From positions 1 through 62,706 of the forward strand of contig QHRX01000024.1 in assembly GCA_003221455.1 (NCBI GenBank): 62,706 nucleotides of DNA, read 5' to 3'. A model generated the notes under the pieces. That model was given only the letters and a program-made list of their open reading frames with translations, did not search any database and was not told where the DNA came from. Positions within the stretch are counted from its first letter, which is position 1; each line of letters starts with the position of its first letter. The translations under genes and the position numbers were made by a program. Shown here in pieces: positions 571 to 9,371 of the stretch. The stretch comes from Candidatus Rokuibacteriota bacterium. Lineage in GTDB: Bacteria; Methylomirabilota; Methylomirabilia; Rokubacteriales; CSP1-6.

Positions 571-2676
571 GTGAGCAACCTGGTGAGCTACGAGCGGGAG
601 CGGACGATCGGCGTCATTACGGTCGACAACCCGCCCCTCAACGCGCTCAGTGTCGGCGTCCGCCAGGGGCTACTGGACGGTCTGGCCCACGGACTCCGGG
701 ACGCCGGCGCGAGGGCGCTCGTCATCATGGGCGCCGGGCGGACCTTCAGCGCCGGCGCCGACATCCGCGAGTTCGACCGGCCGCTGGCGCCTCCCGACCT
801 GAACGACGTGATCGGGCGGATCGAGGCGAGCCCGAAACTCGTGGTCGCGGCGCTCCACGGGACCGCCCTCGGCGGCGGGCTCGAGGTGGCGCTCGGCTGC
901 CATTACCGCTGCGCGCTCCGCTCGACGCGGGTCGGCTTCCCCGAGGTGACGCTCGGCCTCGTGCCCGGCGCCGGCGGCACCCAGCGGCTCCCTCGCCTGG
1001 TCGGCGCCGAGCTGGCGCTCCGGATCATCGCGAGCGGCGAGCCGATGCCGGCCGAGCGGGCGCACAGCCTCGGACGGATCGACGAGCTGATCGACGGCGA
1101 CCTCCGCGGCGGCGCCATCGCGCTTGCCGAGCGGCTCGTGGCCGAGGGCCGGCCGCTCCGCAGGCTCAGCGCGATCGACGACAAGCTCGAGGCCGCGCGG
1201 CGCGACCCCGGGATCTTCGACCGGTTCCGCCAGGAGATCGAGCGCCAGGCGCGCGGCTACCTGGCGCCGTTCAAGTGCATCGAGGCGGTCCGGGCCGCCG
1301 TGACCTTGCCCTTCGCCGAGGGGCTCCGGCGCGAGCGGGAGCTCTTCCTCGAGTGTCTCGCCTCACCCCAGTCGAGGGCCCAGATCCACGCGTTCTTCGC
1401 CGAGCGCGAGGCGACGAAGATCCCGGACGTGCCCCGGGACACGCCCACGCGGCCGATCGGCACCGCCGCGGTGATCGGTGCCGGCACGATGGGCGGCGGG
1501 ATCGCGATGACCTTCGCCAACGCGGGCATCCCGGTCGCCGTCGTCGAGGCCTCCGAGGAGGCGCTCGACCGGGGGCTCGCCGTCGTCCGGAAGAACTACG
1601 CGGCGACGGTCGAGAAAGGGCGCCTCACGCCGGCCGAGATGGAGCGCCGGCTCGCGCTGATCCGCGGCACCCTCGCCTGGGAGACCGTCGCCGACGCCGA
1701 CATCGTCGTCGAGGCGGTGTTCGAGGAGATGGCGGTCAAGCAGGAGGTCTTCGGCCGGCTCGACCGCCTCTGCCAGCCGACGGCGATCCTCGCCACCAAC
1801 ACCTCGACGCTCGACGTCGACCGGATCGCGCAGGCGACCTCGCGGCCGGGCCAGGTCATCGGCACCCACTTCTTCAGCCCGGCCAACGTCATGCGCCTCC
1901 TCGAGCTCGTGCGCGGCGCCCGCACGTCGACGGAGACGATCGCGACCGCCGCCGCGCTGGCGGGCCGGCTCGGCAAGGTCTGGGTCCTCGCCGGCAACTG
2001 CGACGGGTTCATCGGCAACCGAATGCTCGCGGGCTACTTCCGCGAGGCGGCGTTCCTCGTCGAGGAGGGCGCCACGCCCGAGCAGGTCGACCGGGTCCTC
2101 TACGACTTCGGCTTCGCCATGGGCCCGTTCGCCGTGTCCGACCTGGCCGGGCTCGACGTCGGGTGGCGCATTCGGAAGGGCAAGGCGGCCGCGCGCTCGA
2201 CCGACCTCCGCTACTCTCCGGTGGCCGACTGGCTCTGCGAGCGGGGCCGCTTCGGCCAGAAGACCGGCGCCGGCTGGTATCGGTACGAGCCGGGCGGCCG
2301 GACGCCCCGCCCCGACCCCGAGGTGGCGGCGCTGATCGCCGAGAGCGCCCGCGCGCAGGGCATCCGGCGCCGCGAGGTGGGCGACGAGGAGGTCCTGACG
2401 CGCTGCCTCTATCCGCTCGTCAACGAGGGCGCCCGGCTCTTGGCGGAAGGCATCGCGCTCAGGCCGGGCGACATCGACGTCGTGTACCTCCACGGCTACG
2501 GCTTTCCGCGCTACCGGGGCGGCCCCATGCACTGGGCCGACACCCTTGGATTGAAGCGTGTCTCCGACGAGATTGCCCGGTATCATCGCGTTCACGGGCG
2601 GCTCTGGGAGCCGGCGCCACTGCTCCGGCAGCTCGCCGAGCAGGGCAAGGGCTTCCGCGATTTCGGGCGCGCCTGA
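571..2676 (+). CDS. Bifunctional enoyl-CoA hydratase / 3-hydroxyacyl-CoA dehydrogenase (FadB/FadJ-like)
   Basis: N-terminal crotonase fold ([28 protein letters not shown]), central Rossmann [17 protein letters not shown] and 3HADH motif [18 protein letters not shown]. Confidence 0.92.
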
Positions 2677-2704
2677 CGGAGGACCCGATGCTCGAGCGCC
2701 GCAC

Positions 2705-3691
2705 GTGATCCGGGCCAGGATCGCCGGTCTGGGTGCTTACGCGCCTACGCGAGTCCTCACCAACCACGAGCTCGAGCAGCGGCTCGGGACCTCGGACGAG
2801 TGGATCACCCAGCGGACGGGGATCCGCGAGCGCCGGATCGCCGACGCGAGCGAGGCCACCTCCGACCTCGCCCTGCCCGCCGCCCGGCAGGCGCTCGAGC
2901 GCGCCGGGGCCACGCCGGCCGAGGTGGAGCTGATCGTCGTCGGCACCTCGACGGCGGACATGGTCTTTCCCTCCACCGCCAACTTCGTCCAGCACAAGCT
3001 CGGGGCGGGGCACGCCGGCTCGGTCGACGTTTCCGCCGCCTGCTCGGGCTCCGTCTACAGCCTCTCGGTCGGCGCCCAGTACATCGAGACCGGCAAGTAC
3101 CGGACCGTGCTCGTGATCGGGGCCGAGACGTACTCGCGGCTCGTCGACTGGGACGACCTCCGCACCTGCGTCCTCTTCGGGGACGGGGCGGGCGCCGCCG
3201 TCCTCCGCCCCGCCGCCGACGGCTCGGGGATCCTCGATACCGACCTCTACTCCGACGGCCAGTACGCGGATCTGCTCTACGTGCCGGGCGGGCGCTCCCG
3301 GCACCCCGCCACGCGCGAGAGCGTCGCGCAGCGGCTCCAGTTCCTGAAGATGCCGAAGGGCGACGAGGTCTTCAAGGTCGCCGTCCGCACCCTCGCCGAG
3401 GCGTCGCTCGCGATCCTCGAGAAGAACGGCTTCGGACCCGACACGGTCGACCTCTTCGTCCCCCACCAGGCCAACATCCGGATCATCGAGGCCGTGGCCA
3501 AGCGGCTCCACCTGCCGATGGGCAAGGTCGTCGTCAACGTGGACCGCTACGGCAATACCGCGGCGGCGTCGGTCTACGTCGCGCTCGCCGAGGCGTGGTC
3601 CGAGGGGCGTGTGAGGCCCGGCGACCTGGTCCTGCTCGCCACCTTCGGGGGCGGCTTCACCTGGGGCACCGCGCTCGTCCGATGGTCCTGA
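2705..3691 (+). CDS. Beta-ketoacyl-ACP synthase III family protein (FabH-like)
   Basis: GTG start at 2705; [13 protein letters not shown] (Cys), VPHQAN (His), RYGNTAAAS (Asn) catalytic triad motifs. Confidence 0.9.
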
Positions 3692-3743
3692 GCCGTGTAT
3701 CATCGCAGAGAGGGGACCGACGCCTGACCCAAGGAGACCGACC

Positions 3744-4928
3744 ATGACCGAGGCCGTCATCGTCTCGACCGCCCGTACCGGGATCGGCAAGGCCTACCGC
3801 GGGGCCCTCAACAACACCCACGGGGCCACGCTCGGCGGCCACGTCATCGCGGAGGCCGTCCGGCGGGCTCGCCTGGAGCCGGGCGAGGTCGAGGACGTCG
3901 TCATGGGCTGCGCGCTCCCGGAGGGCGCGACCGGGCACAACATCGCGCGCCAGGCGGCCCTGCGGGCGGGGCTGCCGGTGACGACCGCGGGAACGACGGT
4001 CAACCGGTTCTGCTCCTCGGGCCTGCAGGCCATCAGCATCGCCGCGGCGCGCGTGCTCGTCGACCGGGTGCCGATCGTCGTGGCGGGCGGGCTCGAGTCG
4101 GTCAGCCTCGTGCAGAACGAGCACATGAACCTGCACCGCTTTCGCGAGCCGTGGCTCGAGGAGCACAAGCCCGAGATCTACATGAGCATGATCGAGACGG
4201 CGGAGGTGGTGGCCACGCGCTACTACATCACGCGGGAGAGGCAGGACGAGTACGCGCTGCTGAGCCAGCAGCGCACGGCCGTCGCGCAGCGCGCCGGCCG
4301 CTTCGACGCCGAGATTGTCCCCATCACGACCCGCAAGCTCGTGCAGGACAAGACGACGGGGGAGACGCGAGAGGAAGAGGTCACCCTCACGAAGGACGAA
4401 GGGAACCGCCCCGACACGACCGCGGAGGGGCTCGCCGCGCTCAAGCCGGTGGCGGGCGAGAAGGGCCACGTCACGGCCGGCAACGCCAGCCAGCTCTCCG
4501 ACGGCGCCGCCGCCTGCGTCCTGATGGACGGCAAGCTCGCCGAGCGACGCGGGCTCGCGCCCCTCGGGATCTACCGGGGCCTCGCCGTCGCGGCCTGCGA
4601 GCCCGACGAGATGGGGATCGGCCCCGTGTTCGCCGTGCCGCGGCTCCTCGAACGCTTCGGCCTCCGTCGGGACCAGATCGACCTCTGGGAGCTGAACGAG
4701 GCCTTCGCCGTCCAGGTCGTCTACTGCCGCGACCGGCTCGGCATCCCGCCGGAGACGCTGAACGTCGACGGGGGCGCCATCTCGATCGGCCACCCGTACG
4801 GCATGAGCGGCGCCCGAATGGTGGGCCACGCGCTGATCGAGGGCAAGCGCCGGCGCGCCCGGTGGGTCGTCTGCACGATGTGTATCGGCGGCGGCATGGG
4901 GGCGGCCGGCCTCTTCGAGATCGCCTGA
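3744..4928 (+). CDS. Acetyl-CoA acetyltransferase (thiolase)
   Basis: [12 protein letters not shown] nucleophile motif, [29 protein letters not shown]. Confidence 0.93.
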
Positions 4929-4937
4929 GGCGGTCGG

Positions 4938-5570
4938 GTGAAGATCGGGACCATCGGCGCTGGCAACATCGGCGGCACGCTCGGGCGCGCGTGGGCGGCG
5001 ACGGGGCACCAGGTCGTCTTCGGCGTGCGGGATCCGCGCGGTCCGAAGGTCCAGGAGCTGGTCACGGCGACCGGGGGCAAGGCCCGGGCGGCCAGCCCGG
5101 CGGAGGCGGCGGCCCACGGCGAGGTCGTCCTGCTCGCCACCCCCTGGGCCGCGGCCCGGGCGGCGCTTGGCGGGGCGGGCGACCTGACCGGCAAGATCCT
5201 CGTCGACGCCACCAACCCGCTCCAGCCGGATCTGTCCGGGCTCGCCCTCGGCCACACCACCTCCGCCGGCGAGGAGGTGGCGCGCTGGGCGCCGGGGGCG
5301 AAGGTCGTCAAGGCGTTCAACACGATCGGCGCCCAGCACATCGCCAATCCCCGCTTCGGCACCCAGAGCGCCTCCATGCTCATCTGTGGCGACGACCTAG
5401 CGGCCAAGAAGACGGTCCTGTTGCTCGCCGAATCCCTGGGCTTCGACCCCGTCGACGCCGGCCCGCTCAGGCAGGCGCGCCTGCTCGAGCCACTCGCGAT
5501 GCTCTGGATCTCGCTCGCCTACGCCTACGGTCACGGCCCCGACATCGCCTTCAAGCTCCTCCGCCGCTGA
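4938..5570 (+). CDS. NADPH-dependent F420 reductase-like / NAD(P)-binding oxidoreductase
   Basis: GTG start; MKIGTIGAGNIGGTLGRAWAATGHQVVFGVRDPRG Rossmann motif; ATNPL..KAFNTIGA typical of the F420-dependent NADP reductase family. Confidence 0.75.
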   Translation: MKIGTIGAGNIGGTLGRAWAATGHQVVFGVRDPRGPKVQELVTATGGKARAASPAEAAAHGEVVLLATPWAAARAALGGAGDLTGKILVDATNPLQPDLSGLALGHTTSAGEEVARWAPGAKVVKAFNTIGAQHIANPRFGTQSASMLICGDDLAAKKTVLLLAESLGFDPVDAGPLRQARLLEPLAMLWISLAYAYGHGPDIAFKLLRR

Positions 5571-5611
5571 GCCCGGGCCCGGGAGCCGCAGGGCCGCCGA
5601 GGGGCAGCGAG

Positions 5612-6643
5612 ATGGCGCGTGGCGCGACGATGCGGGCGGCGTTCTACGAGGGCGCGCGACGCTTCAGGACGGGCACGGCGAGCGTGCCCGCGCCCGGGCC
5701 GGGCGAGGCCCTCCTCCGGGTGCGCCGGGTCGGAATCTGCGGAACCGACCTCCACATCTTCCAGGGGCACCTCGACCACCGCGTGCCGCGGGGCGGCGTG
5801 ATCGGCCACGAGGCGCTGGCCGAGGTGGCGGAGGCTCCCGCAGGGAGTGGATTCACCGCGGGCGACCGGGTCGTCGTCGAGCCGCTCTGGTTCTGCGGCG
5901 CCTGCCGCGCCTGCCGGATGGGCGGCTCGTATCTCTGTTACAACCTCAAGGTGCTGGGGGTCGACCTGCCCGGGGGCATGCGGGAATACTGGCCGGTGCC
6001 GGTCGGGCGGCTCCTCAAGGTGCCGGCCGTGCTGGGCGACGACCACGCCGCGCTGATCGAGCCCCTGAGCGTCGCCACCCACGACGTCCGCCGCGCGCGG
6101 GTCGGGACGGGGGACGCGGTGGTCGTGTTCGGCGGCGGGCCCATCGGCGCGCTGATCGCGATGGTCGCCCGCCAGAAGGGCGCGCGGGTCGTCGTGGCCG
6201 AGGTGAACCCCTTCCGCCTCGACATGCTGGCCACGCTCGGCCTCCAGACCGTGGGGCCCGACCAGGACCTCGTCGGGTTCGTCAACGACTGGACCGGAGG
6301 CGACGGCGCCGACGTCGCCTTCGAGGTCACGGGGAATCCCAAGGCCGTCCGCGCCATGACCGAGGTCGTGCGGGTGTGGGGCACGGTGAGCATCGTCGCC
6401 ATCCACTCCGAGCCGATGCCGGTCAACCTCTACCAGATGTTCGCGCGCGAGCTCAGCATGCACGGCAGCCGGCTCTACGCCCGGGAGGACTGGGAGGAGG
6501 CGATCCGCCTGGCCGCCAGCGGCGCCATCACGCTCGGCCCGCTCGTGAGCCGGACGATCCCGCTCGAGGCGCTCCAGGAGGGCATGGAGCAGGCGCTCGG
6601 CGGCGGCCCCGTCATGAAGCTCCTGGTGGACCTGACGGCGTGA
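5612..6643 (+). CDS. Zinc-dependent alcohol dehydrogenase (threonine/sorbitol dehydrogenase-like MDR family)
   Basis: GICGTDLHIFQGH, GHEALAEV, structural Zn loop CGACRACRMGGSYLC, Rossmann GGGPIGALIAMVA. Confidence 0.88.
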   Translation: MARGATMRAAFYEGARRFRTGTASVPAPGPGEALLRVRRVGICGTDLHIFQGHLDHRVPRGGVIGHEALAEVAEAPAGSGFTAGDRVVVEPLWFCGACRACRMGGSYLCYNLKVLGVDLPGGMREYWPVPVGRLLKVPAVLGDDHAALIEPLSVATHDVRRARVGTGDAVVVFGGGPIGALIAMVARQKGARVVVAEVNPFRLDMLATLGLQTVGPDQDLVGFVNDWTGGDGADVAFEVTGNPKAVRAMTEVVRVWGTVSIVAIHSEPMPVNLYQMFARELSMHGSRLYAREDWEEAIRLAASGAITLGPLVSRTIPLEALQEGMEQALGGGPVMKLLVDLTA

Positions 6644-7416
6644 CCGCCGAGGCCGTCTTCGCGCGTGAGGGCGCCGTCGCCGTCCTCACGTTCAACCGGC
6701 CCGAGGCCCGCAACGCGATGACGTGGGCGATGTACGACGCGCTCGCGGCCGCGTGCGACACGGTCGACCGCGACGACGAGCTGCGCGTCCTCATCCTCCG
6801 GGGGGCGGGCGGCCGGGCCTTCGTGGCGGGGACCGACATCAGCCAGTTCCAGGCCTTCGAGACCTCCGCGGACGCCCTCGACTACGAGCGCCGCATGGAC
6901 CGCGTCATCACCCGCCTCGAGGGGGTGGGAAAGCCGACCCTCGCCGCCATCGCGGGCGTGGCCGCGGGCGGCGGCGCCGCGATCGCGCTCGCCTGCGACC
7001 TCCGCTACTGCACGCCCGAGAGCACGATCGGCATCCCGATCGCCCGCACGATCGGCAACTGCCTGTCGATGGCCAACTACGCGCGGCTCGTCGACCTCCT
7101 CGGCCCCGCCCGCACGAAGGAGCTGATCTTCCGCGCGCGCCTCCTCCCCGCCGAGGAGGCGCGCCAGGCCGGCCTCGTGAACGAGGTCGTGGCGGCCGAC
7201 CGGCTCGAGGAGCGCGTGCGCGAGGTCGCCCGCGAGATCGCCGGCCACGCCCCGATCACCCTCCGCGTGACGAAGGAGGCCCTCCGCCGCCTCCAGCTCG
7301 CGCGCCGCCCGCCCGAGTGCGACGACCTGATCGTGCAGGCCTACCTGAGCGAGGACTTCCGGGAGGGCGTGCAGGCCTTCCTCGCCAAGCGCGCGCCCGC
7401 CTTCCGCGGGCGCTGA
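6640..7416 (+). CDS. Enoyl-CoA hydratase/isomerase family protein
   Basis: GTG start overlapping the upstream stop (GTGA); FNRPEARNAM, GGRAFVAGTDISQF, GGGAAIALACDLRY. Confidence 0.9.
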   Translation: MTAEAVFAREGAVAVLTFNRPEARNAMTWAMYDALAAACDTVDRDDELRVLILRGAGGRAFVAGTDISQFQAFETSADALDYERRMDRVITRLEGVGKPTLAAIAGVAAGGGAAIALACDLRYCTPESTIGIPIARTIGNCLSMANYARLVDLLGPARTKELIFRARLLPAEEARQAGLVNEVVAADRLEERVREVAREIAGHAPITLRVTKEALRRLQLARRPPECDDLIVQAYLSEDFREGVQAFLAKRAPAFRGR

Positions 7417-7514
7417 CTCCCTCCCCGCCCCGTCGCCCGGCTCCCGCTTGTCGAGGGGGGCATTGTCGTCTATCGTGGCGCCGGACCAGTCGACCGGGCC
7501 GAGGAGCGACGCCA

Positions 7515-9371
7515 ATGAAGTCCTTCGTCGTCAACCGCTACGGGCGCCTCGTCTTCCCCTTCAACTTTTTCCCGGAACTCGACTTCTCGATCTTCGAGAG
7601 CCTCGAGCAGTTCGCGGCGGTCATCAGGCGCGACTTCGAGGAGAAGGCGCCGTCCGAGACCGAGATCGTGGCCCGACTCGAGGCCGGCCTCTACCGCCGG
7701 CGCCACGAGCTCTTGCGGGATCTCGCGCTGAACCTGTTCTGGGTCAATCGTTACGCGATGACGATGTACGACAAGCGCCCCACGCGCTGGCGCGACGTGC
7801 CCCGTCACCGCGACGACGTGTTCCTGCCGGTCTTCACGCCGTGGGACGGCGCCGGGCCGGTGGCGCGGATCGAGGCGGGCTACCGAGCGCTCGGACCGAC
7901 CTGGGACGAGGGGACCGAGGACAAGGTCTTCCGCATCCTGTTCGACGTGTTCCGCCACAAGAAGGGCGCGGGGGCGGAGCTGCCCGCCGTCAAGCCGACG
8001 GTGCCGGAGATCCTCGCCGACCCCCGCAGCCTCACCTACCACCTCCTCGCGTACGACCCCGACTACCCGGGCTACAGCTACGCGGACATCGTCGAGTGCT
8101 TCCACCGAGTGCCCGAGCTGGAGGCGCTCTCGCGGCAGGCGATGGTCCTCCACAACCAGTACCGCTGGGACCGCGGGCAGACCCGGCTCACCGAGGTCGG
8201 CCGGCTCGCCCCCGACGACTTCGTGGTCGTCTTCCACCCGCGCACCGAGGAGGTGCTCCAGTTCATCCGGCGTGTGAAGGGCAACCGGCGCCAGCGCGTG
8301 CGCCGGCCGACACCGGTCGAGGCGCGCAAGCCGGCGAGCCCCTACCCGCCCGTGGACGTGCGCGCCCGCTTCAAGGTCCTGCCGCGCGTCGAGGCCCTCG
8401 CCGTGTACCGGGGCGAGCGGGTCTGCACCAACGACGACCTGATCCGCAACGCCGCCTACTGCTGGTCGCCCATGACCGCCGACGAGATCCGCGAGAAGAC
8501 CGGCATCGAGCAACGCCGGTACACGGAGCTCGAGCTCGACCATATGGCGCTCCTGGCCGCGAGGGCGGCGCTCGCCAAGTCCGGTCACGGGCCGGAGGAG
8601 ATCGGCGCCCTGCTCTTCTGCTCGTGCACGAGCGTGAAGATGATGCCGTCGGTCGGCACCTGGCTCTCGGGCCAGCTCGGGATGTTCCAGACGCACGTCT
8701 CGTGCGACCTGGTGGCGGCCTGCGCCGGCCTGCCGTACGGTCTGGCCGAAGCGGTGCGCGTGCTCCAGGAAGTCGAGCGGCCCGTGCTGGTCGTGTGCGG
8801 GGAGAAGTTCTCCGACAAGATCGGGACGGTGCGGACCTCGCGGATGATCTTCGGCGACGCGGCGGCGGCCCTCGTGCTGGCCCCGGCCCCCGCCGGCGCG
8901 CCGCCCGACATCGAGGTGTACCAGACCTACGCGAGCGGCCCCATGAGCGAAGTCGACTCGATCATCTGGCCCAACCCCGAGTTCGACAACAACATCACCG
9001 TCTACGGCCCCGAGGTCCGGGCGCTCGTCCAGCGCTACCTCAGCCAAATGCTGGCCGAGCTGACGGCGCTGCCACACCCCGACGGCGGGCCGGGCTCGAT
9101 GCTGGACGCGATCGACGTGATCGTGCCTCATCAGGCGAACAAGACCATGGTCGTGAGCCTGGCCCGGGCGGCCGGTATCCCGCCCGAGCGGCTCTACTTC
9201 AACATCGAGCGCGTCGGCAACACGTCCTCGGCGTCGATCCCGCTCGCGCTCCACGACGCCGTCCGCGAGGGCGTCATCGCGCGCCCCGTGCGGGTGTTCG
9301 CGCCCGGCTTCGGCGCCGGCGCCGTCGGTGGCTACGTGGTGCTCCGCTTCGATCCGGCGGTCGTCGCCTAG
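7515..9371 (+). CDS. Two-domain protein: unrecognised N-terminal domain (~290 aa) fused to a 3-oxoacyl-ACP synthase III-type ketosynthase
   Basis: ATG at 7515; C-terminal half carries SCDLVAACAGLPYG (Cys codon at 8721), VIVPHQANKTM and ERVGNTSSAS; residues 1-~290 match no family I recognise. Confidence 0.85.
   Translation: MKSFVVNRYGRLVFPFNFFPELDFSIFESLEQFAAVIRRDFEEKAPSETEIVARLEAGLYRRRHELLRDLALNLFWVNRYAMTMYDKRPTRWRDVPRHRDDVFLPVFTPWDGAGPVARIEAGYRALGPTWDEGTEDKVFRILFDVFRHKKGAGAELPAVKPTVPEILADPRSLTYHLLAYDPDYPGYSYADIVECFHRVPELEALSRQAMVLHNQYRWDRGQTRLTEVGRLAPDDFVVVFHPRTEEVLQFIRRVKGNRRQRVRRPTPVEARKPASPYPPVDVRARFKVLPRVEALAVYRGERVCTNDDLIRNAAYCWSPMTADEIREKTGIEQRRYTELELDHMALLAARAALAKSGHGPEEIGALLFCSCTSVKMMPSVGTWLSGQLGMFQTHVSCDLVAACAGLPYGLAEAVRVLQEVERPVLVVCGEKFSDKIGTVRTSRMIFGDAAAALVLAPAPAGAPPDIEVYQTYASGPMSEVDSIIWPNPEFDNNITVYGPEVRALVQRYLSQMLAELTALPHPDGGPGSMLDAIDVIVPHQANKTMVVSLARAAGIPPERLYFNIERVGNTSSASIPLALHDAVREGVIARPVRVFAPGFGAGAVGGYVVLRFDPAVVA

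Follow-up and report, generated by a model that had tools for sequence, protein, structure and literature searches.

What a KASIII-type ketosynthase may do when it is joined to a long N-terminal extension of no recognised family is the question raised by a gene of Candidatus Rokuibacteriota bacterium, located on a stretch of 62,706 nucleotides (contig QHRX01000024.1, assembly GCA_003221455.1) that is referred to as a whole as the window. Polyhydroxyalkanoate (PHA) synthesis is taught as a thiolase-driven process, thermodynamically limited at its first step. The KASIII-type enzyme NphT7 of Streptomyces CL190 condenses acetyl-CoA with malonyl-CoA irreversibly (PMC5432608, PMC3899235); it has been reported to keep the catalytic triad, to miss the ACP-binding arginine and to have no KASIII (ACP) activity (PMC5432608). 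In Synechocystis an engineered NphT7-PhaB-PhaC pathway uses NphT7 instead of the thiolase PhaA for the production of PHB (PMC3899235). In this work we have analyzed the architecture, distribution and genetic neighbourhood of the Rokubacteria fusion protein, starting from an earlier note made on the sequence of the window.

The reading frame is unbroken from the ATG at 7515 to the stop codon at 9369-9371 and encodes 618 amino acids. The earlier note had read it in this way, and the reading is upheld by the GAGGAG sequence upstream and by the equivalent start, Met/Leu-Lys-x-Phe, of homologues from within and beyond the phylum (Table 1). The complete ketosynthase triad that it had noticed in the C-terminal part is likewise present (Cys403, His539 and Asn569), and Pfam places ACP_syn_III (E 8e-10) and ACP_syn_III_C (E 6e-23) solely within residues 398-611. 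The extra N-terminal region exists as described, although the length of ~290 aa assigned to it was too generous: the folded part comprises ~255 aa, and residues 256-287 form a variable linker. Among 56 family sequences the mean pairwise identity is 59% in the N-domain, 39% in the linker and 71% in the ketosynthase (KAS) domain. The pairwise identities of the two halves correlate with r = 0.90, as expected of joint inheritance.

Table 1 Features of the fusion gene and of the genes preceding it in the window
Feature	Position (nt)	Strand	Basis or remark
FadJ-like gene	571-2676	same strand as run	
FabH	2696-3691	same strand as run	above family cut-offs
Thiolase (acetyl-CoA C-acyltransferase)	3744-4928	same strand as run	above cut-off
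NpdG-like reductase	4938-5570	same strand as run	
Zinc alcohol dehydrogenase			by inspection
Enoyl-CoA hydratase	6640-7416	same strand as run	
Shine-Dalgarno-like GAGGAG (ribosome-binding sequence)	7501-7506	+	sequence; 8 nt upstream of ATG 7515
Complete ORF, N-domain-KASIII fusion, 618 aa	7515-9371	+	full-length homologues
N-terminal domain, residues 1-255, new alpha/beta domain	7515-8279	+	conservation; AlphaFold2 model; no Pfam/NCBIfam/PDB match
Variable Pro/Arg-rich interdomain linker, residues 256-287	8280-8375	+	low pairwise identity
KASIII-type ketosynthase domain, residues 288-618	8376-9368	+	Pfam/NCBIfam; Foldseek to FabH
Catalytic Cys403 (AACAG), TGC	8721-8723	+	invariant in 56/56
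Catalytic His539 (VPHQAN)	9129-9131	+	invariant in 56/56
Thr544, position of FabH ACP-binding Arg (HQANxR)	9144-9146	+	never Arg, 56/56
Catalytic Asn569 (GNTSSAS)	9219-9221	+	invariant in 56/56

The fusion is ancient and obligate, and its family spans at least four phyla. Among 84,980 species genomes scanned, 111 relatives were detected, and the best 80 of these 111 loci were kept: 26 from Rokubacteria, 15 from Acidobacteriota, 38 from Actinomycetota and one from a Pseudomonadales MAG. Both domains lie in one open frame in 78 of these best 80 loci, across the four phyla and including isolates of Geodermatophilus, Rhodococcus ruber and R. aetherivorans. The two exceptions are L126, truncated by the contig end, and L085, frame-shifted within the N-domain and the sole internally broken full-length locus. 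The host assembly is fragmented (336 contigs), which might have suggested that the fusion arose falsely in assembly or annotation, or incidentally in a single lineage, but conservation on this scale, with isolates included, has already refuted such an origin and its probability is negligible. The full-length fused homologues of the four phyla also rule out a split gene, a second start or a chimera; in particular, a second start near 8390 behind a separate N-terminal gene, which the earlier note had offered as the way in which its reading could fail, is unsupported, as no homologue is split there.

Of 95 genomes searched in the window's phylum, 38 contain the N-terminal 291 aa; all 38 are members of its order and fall into the family of the window or into two related families. 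The same search covered even samples of the phyla of genomes G095 (399 genomes, the phylum of L088), G096 (347, that of L109) and G097 (297, that of L074), and added three, one and one fused members, respectively, the first three (L150-L152) 55% identical. Stand-alone homologues of the N-domain, which the earlier note had proposed to look for, were not found in these about 1,140 genomes, barring fragments due to contig ends or frame breaks. A search of 94 genomes with the KAS domain gave no member of this subfamily without the N-domain: members showed 74-100% identity and were all fused or cut by the contig, and the next KASIII matches reached at most 36% identity over the full length, leaving a clean gap. 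A plasmid search gave no match. Some Rokubacteria genomes (G043, G044, G045 and G050) carry two to three copies of the fusion (L031, L033-L036), and a second Rokubacteria clade, just 66-68% identical to the window protein, may act on a different substrate.

By sequence and by PDB fold the N-terminal part is a new conserved domain of ~255 aa. Profile searches and scans with residues 1-258 turned up nothing significant in Pfam, NCBIfam or PDB sequences, in line with the earlier description of an unrecognised domain in an unusual architecture. Modelling by AlphaFold2 on 56 diverse sequences was confident for both the full-length protein (pLDDT 88.4, pTM 0.87) and the isolated N-domain (pLDDT 87.2, pTM 0.83). 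The latter has an alpha/beta structure with helices at residues 30-44, 48-56, 63-84, 113-125, 132-147, 200-214 and 245-255 and short strands at 85-91, 173-177, 223-227 and 236-242. Its comparison with the PDB by Foldseek, a check suggested at the outset, gave no fold match (best E 1.7, probability 0.02), and none was found in BFVD. A weak match to PF17280 (E 0.098) was dismissed as chance, and kinship with the PhaR regulator or with PhaC was rejected, as hhalign against a PHB_acc_N protein and against PhaC gave probabilities below 1%.

The first 20 residues, with the consensus MKPFVxNRHGRxVFPxNFFP, are among the most conserved of the N-domain. They are modelled with pLDDT 82/84 in the full-length protein and 45/56 in the isolated domain, and since they gain confidence only in the presence of the KAS domain, the N-domain probably packs on the ketosynthase, either to shape its donor site or to dock partner enzymes. 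Residues R39, D40, K44, R68, D69, W76, R79, E135, E203, R207 and W218 are invariant and His213 is nearly so; the conserved Arg, Asp and Glu might serve catalysis or structural salt bridges. Such a set of charged and aromatic residues (R39, D40, R68, D69, R79, E135, E203, R207, W76 and W218 with His213) could belong to a second enzyme, e.g. an acyltransferase, decarboxylase or thioesterase, working in series with the KAS domain, an arrangement compatible with a role of the protein in PHA synthesis. We consider it unlikely, because no enzyme in PDB or Pfam matches the domain in fold or sequence, no obvious nucleophile or cofactor motif is seen and the N-terminal segment is modelled confidently only with the KAS domain in place. 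We favour an accessory or docking domain, among the options raised in the earlier note, and infer a non-ketosynthase module with a role in packing, selectivity or docking.

The C-terminal domain is a member of the KASIII superfamily (thiolase fold), as judged by the Cys-His-Asn triad and the KASIII fold. Foldseek matches the full model to FabH structures (E 5e-23), and those of PDB entries 1hn9, 2ebd and 4wzu, which have the same fold and triad, align along almost all of the C-terminal 320 residues with 24-28% identity. This likeness would suit a FabH-type initiator of fatty acid synthesis (acetyl-CoA plus malonyl-ACP) carrying an extra domain. Against it, the protein scores far below the FabH cut-offs of NCBIfam (167.7 bits against 249 for NF006829 and 133.6 against 292.1 for TIGR00747), whereas the other KASIII of the window, at 2696-3691, exceeds both. 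FabH homologues have an arginine at the end of HQANxR, which we take to be Arg249 of E. coli and which the FabH of the window also possesses (HQANIR); in the fusion family the motif reads HQANK[T/N/A/S/K]M with minor variants, and this ACP-contacting arginine is replaced by T, N, A, S or K in 56 of 56 sequences. The gene is patchily distributed and, outside the window's phylum, sits among PHA genes. Set apart from FabH by its obligate N-domain, by the lost arginine, by its scores and by its PHA context in other phyla, the family is most improbably a FabH-type initiator.

The missing arginine points instead, at the level of sequence, to chemistry of acyl-CoA with malonyl-CoA and away from fatty acid initiation. 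An intact triad without the ACP-binding arginine is the combination described for NphT7 (PMC5432608), and it is found in the fusion KAS domain, the two enzymes being likened here by published description. NphT7 differs in its origin from a mevalonate gene cluster, in having no N-domain described and in the presence of an AGGSR motif for CoA recognition, which is absent from the KAS sequence of the window as read by eye in the translation. Because of this absence, a similar mode of working alone is claimed and not membership of the NphT7 family.

In Acidobacteriota and Actinomycetota the fusion gene recurrently lies together with PhaC and a PhaB-type reductase. The flanks of the 15 Acidobacteriota loci contain PhaC, a carboxylase and a PhaR/PhaE-like gene in 12 cases each. 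In all 15 (L072:2872-5541 and 14 further loci) a PhaB-like ketoreductase of the FabG/PhaB type is fused in frame at the C-terminus, so that N-domain, ketosynthase and ketoreductase form one chain of 888-900 aa. This reductase scores above a FabG cut-off and below the PhaB-type cut-off, hence its substrate is not fixed. The order of genes in L072 is a biotin-dependent carboxyltransferase, a biotin carrier protein, the fusion gene, a further SDR, a putative phasin-like gene without a family match, a PhaR-like subunit and a class-III-like PhaC.

Among the 38 Actinomycetota loci (members include Geodermatophilus, Modestobacter, Blastococcus, Rhodococcus and Pseudonocardia) a carboxylase was found in 30, a PhaB-like reductase in 25 and PhaC in 16. 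The SDR of L123 exceeds the cut-off of TIGR01829, acetoacetyl-CoA reductase. The carboxylase is a single chain of ~1,840 aa that typically adjoins the fusion gene; in L095:2463-7973, L109:703-6225 and L123:9993-15671 it contains regions of biotin carboxylase and of biotin carrier type together with a carboxyltransferase, recognised by inspection, at the C-terminus. Two independent cases came from the sampled genomes: L154, with PhaB directly downstream of the fusion followed by PhaC, and L153, with carboxylase, reductase and PhaC nearby. The PhaCs retain the GxCxG lipase-like box. A tblastn search with the thiolase of the window found no thiolase in the 80 loci, a search that could miss more distant thiolases.

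From the absent ACP arginine and the carboxylase adjacent in two phyla, a 3-ketoacyl-CoA synthase using malonyl-CoA is predicted. We think it rather probable that the fusion protein is such a CoA-dependent, decarboxylative enzyme, most likely an acetoacetyl-CoA synthase, which replaces PhaA in PHA synthesis. Chemistry of this type is already known from ketosynthases. According to the proposed mechanism, Cys403 would take the acyl group from acetyl-CoA (or propionyl-CoA) for condensation with malonyl-CoA, and the CO2 released would make this step irreversible. The acyl-CoA carboxylase, whose genes are seen as partners outside the window's phylum, would supply malonyl-CoA; the PhaB/FabG reductase would form (R)-3-hydroxyacyl-CoA for polymerisation to PHA by PhaC, the fusion protein standing in for the reversible thiolase. 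To a broader proposal we give an even chance: that several phyla share a natural route to PHA without thiolase, PhaA being replaced by an acyl-CoA carboxylase and a decarboxylative KASIII with an obligate domain of unseen fold that selects substrates or docks partners, and that a single chain in Acidobacteriota leads from acetyl-CoA and malonyl-CoA to 3-hydroxyacyl-CoA.

The PHA link is weaker in the window's own phylum, with one adjacent PhaC in 26 loci. In this case (L055/L156, a Rokubacterium of the same order) PhaC is the next gene downstream of the fusion; the examined flanks of the other 25 loci and of the gene in the window itself contain no PHA genes. The host has a PHA locus on another contig (L157:1979-12434, contig C123) that encodes a TetR regulator, an SDR, PhaC, a PhaE-like subunit above its Pfam cut-off, a PhaB-like SDR, a PHB_acc_N regulator, an AMP-binding enzyme, an SDR and a zinc dehydrogenase; nothing similar to the thiolase of the window was detected in the 13 kb of L157 examined. 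PhaC is common in Rokubacteriales genomes with or without the fusion, so its co-occurrence there is uninformative.

Genes of beta-oxidation type form a same-strand run at 571-7416 of the window, and the FabH gene among them is unusual. This operon was rejected as the functional context, since neither its thiolase nor its hydratase is conserved beside the gene in other loci, and the neighbours tested in Rokubacteria (methionine synthase-like, amidohydrolases, amidase, TPP enzyme, aminotransferase) share no theme. The proteobacterial members (L088 and L150-L152) have no PhaC nearby; the neighbours of L150 include a metalloprotease-like and a methanethiol-oxidase-like protein.

Several of these observations weigh against a role in PHA synthesis: the 25 flanks free of PHA genes, the real thiolase among the window's neighbours, PhaC in genomes devoid of the fusion and the proteobacterial loci, to which the unseen AGGSR motif and the Acidobacteriota reductase, with its score below the PhaB-type cut-off, may be added. 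The enzyme might make another 3-ketoacyl-CoA or starter that feeds into a secondary metabolite, a lipid or PHA monomers of greater length or with branches, with acetoacetyl-CoA for PHA as one outlet of several, notably in Rokubacteria and Proteobacteria. The loci without PHA genes or PhaC in these two groups, the multiple copies and the divergent clade in Rokubacteria and the versatility of KASIII relatives agree with such products. PHA genes, however, are the only conserved biosynthetic neighbours found, and all phyla share one domain architecture and one set of key residues, which leaves this a tentative alternative. Acetoacetyl-CoA synthase activity in the family as a whole and PHA as the end product in Rokubacteria are inferred.

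The fusion loci resemble PHA operons of the phaCAB and phaC-phaE/R types in their genes for a PhaB-like reductase, PhaC, PhaR/PhaE-like and putative phasin-like proteins, but where the operons have PhaA these loci have the KASIII fusion and an acyl-CoA carboxylase. The engineered Synechocystis pathway follows the same chemistry as that proposed here and is synthetic, whereas the present arrangement appears to be natural and uses a different, fused enzyme. Among open-licence PMC papers, a scope that allows for description elsewhere, we found no account of the fusion, of its obligate new domain or of its ketoreductase-extended form, and none of a natural PHA locus that relies on a KASIII or combines one with a carboxylase.

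The N-domain merits attention independently of function, as a conserved unit of ~255 aa with no relative found in sequence or among PDB folds. If the proposed function is true, the potential of genomes for PHA synthesis would have to be judged differently, since loci with a natural route driven by carboxylation and decarboxylation would look incomplete. Such a route would also provide ready-made enzymes for bioplastic production, in which this bypass has so far been artificial, with NphT7.
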